A DNA stretch of 45,056 nucleotides, taken from positions 1 through 45,056 of the forward strand of contig JASGUC010000026.1 of the NCBI GenBank assembly GCA_030057915.1. The letters run 5' to 3'. Below are positions 4,777 through 44,315 of this stretch, piece after piece (positions within the stretch are counted from its first letter, which is position 1; each line of letters opens with the position of its first letter). The translations under genes and the position numbers were made by a program. Under the pieces are notes generated by a model. The model ran no database searches, was not told where the DNA came from, and was given only the letters and a program-made list of their open reading frames with translations. The DNA is from Pseudomonadota bacterium (lineage in GTDB: Bacteria; Desulfobacterota; Syntrophia; Syntrophales; UBA8958).

Positions 4777-4834
4777 ATATAAGGCATCTTCCCGGTGCGG
4801 CCACGGTCAATTTATCCTCTTGGTCCGGCGCGGC

Positions 4835-4938
4835 CAGGGTAAATTCGTTCTATCTCTAAGTGGCTGAAAACAGGACGTGCCTCAGTTTTAGGAGCCCATT
4901 CAAGATCAACTACTTACATTGAGGACAAATTTACCCTG
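4835..4938 (+). mobile_element. 104-bp MITE, copy A
   Basis: The element begins CAGGGTAAATTCGTTC and ends GACAAATTTACCCTG, giving terminal inverted repeats of about 16 bp. The interior carries CTCTAAGTGGCTGAAAACAG and GATCAACTACTTACATTG blocks that recur in the copies at 20416 and 44129. Near-identical 10-bp direct repeats flank it (CCGGCGCGGC at 4825-4834, CCGGTGCGGC at 4939-4948). It has no coding capacity, so it would need a transposase supplied elsewhere. It sits between the divergent promoters of tRNA-Thr and the cyclase gene. Confidence 0.85.
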
Positions 4939-4956
4939 CCGGTGCGGCCATTTACC

Positions 4957-20361: not shown

Positions 20362-20415
20362 AACGCCGCCGATCCTAATGGAAGAAGCCGACATTTGCAA
20401 TGGCTAAGATCGCCA

Positions 20416-20519
20416 CAGGGTAAATTTGTTCTCAATGTAAGTAGTTGATCTTGAATGATCTACTAAAACTGAGGCACATCCTGTTTTAAGCCACTTAGAG
20501 ATAGAACAAATTTACCGTG
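20416..20519 (-). mobile_element. 104-bp MITE, copy B
   Basis: It starts CAGGGTAAATTTGTTCTC and ends AACAAATTTACCGTG and is the same element as at 4835 and 44129, in opposite orientation. The flanks are 10-bp direct repeats with one mismatch (AAGATCGCCA at 20406-20415, AATATCGCCA at 20520-20529). It lies between the binding protein gene and the cimA leader, 18 bases before a TTGACA. Confidence 0.85.
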
Positions 20520-20537
20520 AATATCGCCACATTTATG

Positions 20538-43974: not shown

Positions 43975-44128
43975 GTCGCTTCCGCTTCCGCAAGGCTTAA
44001 GCCCGCATATATGTATCCGCCGGGCCGCCTCCCGTTTCGTCGTCGTTCCGATTCTTCAGCCAAGCCCTGTAGTTCGCCGACACCATACAACAATTTTCTT
44101 TATCCGGCAACAGCGACATGGTTATATC

Positions 44129-44232
44129 CAGGGTAAATTTGTTCTATCTCTAAGTGGCTGCAAACAGGACGTGCCTCAGTTTTTGTGGATCATTCAAGAT
44201 CAACTGCTTACATCGAGAACAAATTTACCCTG
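44129..44232 (+). mobile_element. 104-bp MITE, copy C, with perfect 9-bp target duplication
   Basis: It begins CAGGGTAAATTTGTTCT and ends GAACAAATTTACCCTG, giving terminal inverted repeats of about 16 bp. It is flanked on both sides by GGTTATATC (44120-44128 and 44233-44241), a perfect 9-bp direct repeat expected from transposition. It is the best preserved of the three copies. Confidence 0.9.
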
Positions 44233-44315
44233 GGTTATATCCCGTTTGGAGGCCAGGACGGCGGCGATCTGAGCGACATAATGCGCAATGACCTGAATCA
44301 TTTGATTTCGCCCAT

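Follow-up and report, generated by a model that had tools for sequence, protein, structure and literature searches.

The systems closest to the repeats described here are bacterial MITEs and the insertion sequences that share their ends. In Anabaena sp. 90, 147 MITEs have been reported, 132 of them intergenic, and the type I elements have been hypothesized to be mobilized by an IS that shares their ends (PMC3542288). Frameshift motifs are present in IS3 and IS5 elements, a transframe product having been reported only for IS1 and IS3 (PMC3281130). The DUF4338 domain, which recurs below, has been termed a GNAT domain in the context of another fusion (PMC10853773); the accessible part of that article does not describe a fusion of DUF4338 with a transposase.

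Here, we analyze a MITE family first noticed in a stretch of 45,056 nucleotides (the window), which is contig C26 of the GC-rich 2.85-Mb genome of an uncultured bacterium, assembled in 64 contigs. The family has spread to many sites of this genome, and the candidate for the enzyme that moved it comes from elsewhere.

The Elements and Their Movement

The window holds three copies of the element, each exactly 104 bp long as the initial annotation had it: copy 1 at 4835..4938 on the plus strand, recognized by the end 17-mer and a match to the internal block; copy 2 at 20416..20519 on the minus strand, inverted relative to copy 1 and recognized by the end 17-mer and by an empty site in the sister species G009; and copy 3 at 44129..44232 on the plus strand, in which the end 17-mer CAGGGTAAATTTGTTCT is perfect on both sides. 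In the window, this 17-mer is matched six times with at most three mismatches, where shuffles predict 0.04, and the terminal inverted repeats described earlier stand with one correction, the left end of copy 1 actually reading CAGGGTAAATTCGTTCT. All three copies lie between direct repeats that can be read from the sequence. Copy 1 is flanked by CCGGCGCGGC (4825..4834) and, with one mismatch, CCGGTGCGGC (4939..4948); copy 2 by AAGATCGCCA (20406..20415) and, again with one mismatch, AATATCGCCA (20520..20529), the identity being 9/10 in both cases; and copy 3 by nine exact bases, GGTTATATC, on the left (44120..44128) and on the right (44233..44241). To the left of copy 1, a third copy of its duplication (CCGGTGCGGC, 4792-4801, plus strand) stands directly before a solo end that has decayed (CACGGTCAATTTATCC, 4802-4817, plus strand). 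Both are missing from the sister genomes in the alignment, and the segment 4792-4824 that contains them is apparently what is left of another insertion into this site.

At the level of the whole genome, the internal block has 85 matches compared with none for the control, and the end sequence, with up to three mismatches allowed, has 212 compared with five for the reversed pattern. The three copies in 45 kb that had been annotated thus belong to a family of at least 85. All 85 internal-block matches were located in the fetched sequence; 77 copies have both ends recognizable, and the other eight are cut, truncated, nested, or decayed. The two-ended copies are very uniform in length (104 bp in 64 of them, 105 bp in nine, and 103 and 110 bp in two each) and far too small to encode a transposase. 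The ends of the consensus are inverted repeats of 17 bp, identical at 16 positions, and the 104-bp copies diverge from the consensus at a mean of 4.05 of the 104 positions, so that no recent burst of the MITE is evident.

Direct repeats of 10 bp flank the two-ended copies exactly in 39 cases out of 77 and with at most one mismatch in 65, while pairing the flanks of different copies gave expectations of 0.00 and 0.01, respectively. The target duplication is therefore real, and the earlier length of "9-10 bp" can be narrowed to 10 bp genome-wide, an exact 9-bp repeat in the 9-bp register being found at only one of the 77 copies. Comparison of the 65 duplications revealed no strong target consensus. 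The insertions are almost wholly intergenic, since a codon-usage model called only four of the 77 sites coding and 73 noncoding, whereas it called 71% of 1209 control positions taken from these flanks coding; in a check of the model, coding calls amounted to 91% inside long open reading frames of the window and 3% in chosen gaps. The element itself can form a strong hairpin (-31.1 kcal/mol, z -4.85).

The joined flanks of copy 2 were searched against the 10 other genomes of the family. The single full-length match was in G009 (83% over 1-636), where a gapless alignment of 165 bp spans the junction, so what G009 lacks is precisely the element together with one of the two duplicates. For copy 1, the query was matched over its whole length by G009 (78%) and G005 (67%), and both genomes lack the element; here, however, the empty site is not the exact one that had been anticipated, as a further 33 adjacent bases, holding the third duplication copy and the decayed end, are also gone. 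With flanks duplicated across the genome, duplications that differ between copies, and one exact empty site in a sister species, the repeats are well supported as a genuine MITE family moved by transposition, as had been proposed from the window.

A Candidate Source of the Transposase

The window contains no cognate transposase, in agreement with the initial annotation. Within the family (11 genomes), the 104-bp elements were found only in the genome of the window; G009 has one element of 101 bp with the same ends and a different interior. More broadly, a search of the class found the exact end core CASGGTAAATTTGTTC in nine genomes out of 155, and one of the phylum found the exact 17-mer CASGGTAAATTTGTTCT in 12 out of 395; the two sets overlap, and the reversed-pattern control gave zero in every row. 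Eight loci (L092, L110, L113, L121, L138, L139, L140, and L148) have MITE-like end pairs around other interiors, L110 and L113 being one insertion seen in two genomes and L138-L140 one 184-bp family; six of the eight, L110 and L113 again representing one insertion, show a 10-bp duplication with at most one mismatch. Further matching regions have a single end, often at the end of a contig. The elements at L138, L139, L140, and L148 are 184-bp MITEs of distant genera, with 17-bp ends of the same type and unrelated interiors, and three of the four have 10-bp duplications (at most one mismatch). Between genera, the interiors of the MITEs are weakly to moderately similar, with z up to 6.2 between different sequence families, and we do not take this similarity as proof.

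In relatives, the same 17-mer, CACGGTAAATTTGTTCT, forms the 3' end of insertion sequences of 1.9 kb that have 10-bp duplications. A complete element in G064 (L114:2962-4880, 1917 bp) has the ends CACGGTAAATTTGTTCT and CAGGGTGAATTTATTCT and encodes a transposase in which a domain scan found DruA (PF14236) at the N terminus, followed by an ISAs1 transposase (PF13808, PF01609, and NF033564). Another complete element, in G235 (L147, transposase at 1179-2992), and one in G129 (L125, 2126 bp, transposase at 368-2187), located through the transposase family, are assigned by their alignment with L114 (64-70% identity). The scan placed DruA before ISAs1 also in L161, L154, L124, and L165; in L161 and L165, PF01609 lies past the frameshift, outside the scanned part. 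Within the class, ISAs1 transposases were found in seven genomes out of 154, with no match in the seven other genomes of the genus and the three others of the family. A scan of named genomes for the fused protein returned 34 loci. Metagenome assemblies of the Desulfobacterota type account for most of them and the isolate Desulfoferrobacter suflitae DRH4 for four, and DFZJ01000185.1 (Syntrophaceae bacterium UBA4059) is another. Of the 813 plasmid records matching the fused protein, only two cover at least 80% of it.

We examined 16 two-ended DruA-ISAs1 elements, drawn from the scan loci, G129, and two plasmid copies of Thiodictyon (Gammaproteobacteria). Nine have a 10-bp duplication with at most one mismatch, eight of them exact, and such duplications are present at all four copies of D. 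suflitae DRH4 and at both Thiodictyon copies; at the remaining seven, all from draft or metagenome assemblies, there is no duplication. On the 3' side, many elements end in the exact 17-mer (L114, L147, L151, L154, L156, L158, L159, and L161-L163) and most others in a near-exact form of it, and the 5' end shows more divergence (CAGGGTGAATT...). Both ends start with CAGGG in the Thiodictyon copies, and an Azospirillum plasmid element annotated as ISAzs22 has inverted repeats with the same start near its coding region. The CAG end of the MITE (CAGGGTAAATTTG) is nearer to the 3' end of the insertion sequences than to their usual 5' end (CAGGGTGAATTYR), and beyond the 17-bp ends the MITE interior has no convincing similarity to the DruA-ISAs1 insertion sequences. 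One element of about 1.03 kb (L137:3001-4033) has the same ends and only a fragment of DruA, and it is possibly an internal-deletion intermediate between an insertion sequence and a MITE.

The transposase of these elements (L147, L114, L125, and L149-L166) is divided between two reading frames. In 14 of the 14 elements checked, the frames meet at the -1 slippery heptamer A_AAA_AAG. It is read as CAA AAA AAG in frame 0, always at one and the same codon of the DDE domain, and past it a conserved KKVG(T/S/A)(L/I)P motif follows in the -1 frame. The zero frame stops immediately after the heptamer in L155 and L161, and in G129 the heptamer is likewise followed by a stop; in L153 and L166, the frame followed from the start of the match reaches an earlier stop; and in L154, one extra A places both halves in a single frame of 611 amino acids. 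The conservation of this arrangement suggests that programmed -1 frameshifting may make the full-length transposase.

The N-terminal domain matches DruA/DUF4338 (PF14236) with E values of about 1e-23 to 1e-28, and Pfam gave a sub-threshold match to Mom. The AlphaFold model of the fused L154 protein (28 rows) is of middling quality (mean pLDDT 68.7, pTM 0.39), and we interpret the DruA part alone. Sequence search against solved structures gave no match for this domain; in a Foldseek comparison with the PDB, the best matches were mainly GNAT acetyltransferases (for example, 9mto with a TM-score of 0.65 by target length and 11% identity), from which a GNAT acetyltransferase fold is predicted for DruA/DUF4338. 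The PADLOC defense models matched none of the three fused proteins scanned. As a guess, the GNAT domain might serve transposition by acetylating DNA or protein or by helping to evade defense.

Mobile Elements in the Host Genome

MITEs usually, though not necessarily, share their genome with an autonomous element that has their ends; in the assembly studied here, the search for ISAs1-type transposases returned no candidates. The genome encodes one IS4-family and one IS1634-family transposase. The IS4-family element (DUF4372 + DDE; L031:993-2324) has a perfect 18-bp inverted repeat, TCACGCCTGTCCGGTTAA, and both transposases were rejected as partners of the MITE as neither locus contains a match to the MITE ends. 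The contig-end sequences joined to MITE halves in the pairs C12/C41 and C50/C7 were also considered as the autonomous element and rejected: the contigs break inside other insertion sequences that are nested in MITE copies. The insertion sequence at the starts of C12/C41 (L084, L089) has the inner ends CCCAAGTTCATGAT and a CTAA duplication, and that at the starts of C50/C7 (L085, L088) has the ends CTTGAGAGTCCAAAGTTT and a CTACTTA duplication. Outside the nested elements, the duplications of the interrupted MITEs, ATTGGCGCCC and TGCCGATGAT, can still be paired between the two contigs of each pair. Where the listed end matches fall near contig ends, the nested elements account for them.

The right junction of the C12/C41 nested element with MITE sequence appears again at C42 (L068), and given this recurrence, the CCCAAGTTCATGAT-ended element either targets that MITE site or moved together with the MITE. 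A further element of about 100 bp, with the ends TTCCTATTCGCA / TTCCTTTTTGCA and a TAA duplication, has three copies in the genome (L053, L074, and L200), two of them at the same position of the MITE in opposite orientations and the third elsewhere.

Discussion

Taken together, the comparisons make it very probable that the MITE family was mobilized in trans by a transposase of the DruA-ISAs1 type. According to this explanation, the MITEs are gene-less DNA transposons of 104 bp for which a DDE transposase was provided in trans. The enzyme would recognize the 17-bp ends CA(C/G)GGTAAATTTGTTCT and cut its targets, which show no obvious consensus, with a stagger of 10 bp, the filling of the gaps producing the 10-bp duplications. 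It would consist of a DruA/DUF4338 (GNAT-fold) domain and an ISAs1 DDE domain, reaching its full length through a -1 frameshift at A_AAA_AAG, and its autonomous source, not detectable in the genome, would be either lost or unassembled. With no ISAs1 candidates in the genome itself or in the seven other genomes of its genus and the three others of its family, the tie is an indirect one, through the 17-mer and duplication length that the copies share with ISAs1 elements elsewhere. On these sequence features, the transposase can be assigned to family level, as ISAs1 and, within it, the subgroup fused to a DruA/GNAT domain. As the partner is not detectable in the genome, the MITE copies are probably fossil or dormant.

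The same explanation could hold with a partner that is still present and active and has merely been collapsed out of the 64-contig assembly, and the contigs that end in other multicopy insertion sequences (C12/C41 and C50/C7) show how this might happen. We nevertheless regard such a hidden partner as rather unlikely: no ISAs1 candidate was found anywhere in the assembly, nested elements explain the ends that lie near contig ends among the matches listed, and the mean divergence of the copies gives no sign of a recent burst. A second alternative concerns the identity of the enzyme. Duplications of about 10 bp are made also by other families, such as IS4 or IS1, and a DDE transposase from one of these could have moved the MITE in a genome that does encode IS4 and IS1634 transposases, the 17-mer being then shared with ISAs1 by convergence. 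That is very improbable, as the IS4 and IS1634 loci contain no MITE ends and the repeat of the former is TCACGCCTGTCCGGTTAA, and several independent DruA-ISAs1 elements have the 17-mer, unaltered, as their 3' end, with zero matches for the control. Least credible of all is the idea that the elements are REP/BIME-like or regulatory hairpins, dispersed by recombination or by a Y1 transposase and retained because they serve transcription: the strong hairpin and the 73 noncoding sites among 77 would fit it, but purifying selection also leaves an intergenic bias, elements spread in these ways, including the RAYT-borne REP/BIME, to our knowledge make no target duplications, and the 10-bp duplications at 65 of 77 copies and the empty site lacking exactly one duplicate contradict it, a later co-opted role of single copies being possible.

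Returning to mobilization by a DruA-ISAs1 transposase, one may picture, tentatively and with more doubt than confidence, a whole superfamily of MITEs across Desulfobacterota-type bacteria, with unrelated interiors of 101-104 and 184 bp, that would be served by frameshifted DruA-ISAs1 transposases. In such a system, the GNAT domain might, in the course of transposition, modify DNA or protein, or else protect the element against host defense, and the MITEs might out-compete their parent by having the well-conserved 3'-type end on both sides.

In the literature searched, which took in only the smaller part of the subscription papers, we found no description of a DruA/GNAT-ISAs1 fusion or of a conserved -1 frameshift site inside the ISAs1 DDE domain, and nothing on the ISAs1 family in connection with target site duplication. 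This is weak evidence that the DruA/GNAT-fused, frameshifted ISAs1 subgroup is novel, and we find it more interesting than the MITE. The value of the MITE is in what it points to: the 17-mer and the duplication length, which are independent of each other, connect an orphan, high-copy family to a family of transposases, and the search leads on to an ISAs1 subgroup with a DruA/GNAT fusion and a conserved putative -1 frameshift site in the DDE domain.

Compared with known systems, the family resembles other bacterial MITEs in being short, in having no transposase gene, and in its inverted repeats, target duplications, and many intergenic copies, but differs in that its ends match a specific IS family undetected in the same genome. 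With the ISAs1 family (NF033564; PF13808 + PF01609), it shares ends starting with CAGGG/CACGG and the 10-bp duplications; the partner elements of relatives carry the DDE transposase of that family, whereas the MITE codes for none, and the partner subgroup adds the N-terminal DruA/GNAT domain and a reading frame split in two at A_AAA_AAG. This added domain is in turn like the DruA (DUF4338) of Druantia, as judged by the PF14236 match, but the latter sits in a defense operon, while the DruA of the partner is fused to a transposase, and a DruA inside a transposase is a simple system for asking what the protein does outside the Druantia operon. The MITE is thus of a kind already known, a high-copy and probably dormant family of what appears to be the ISAs1 type.
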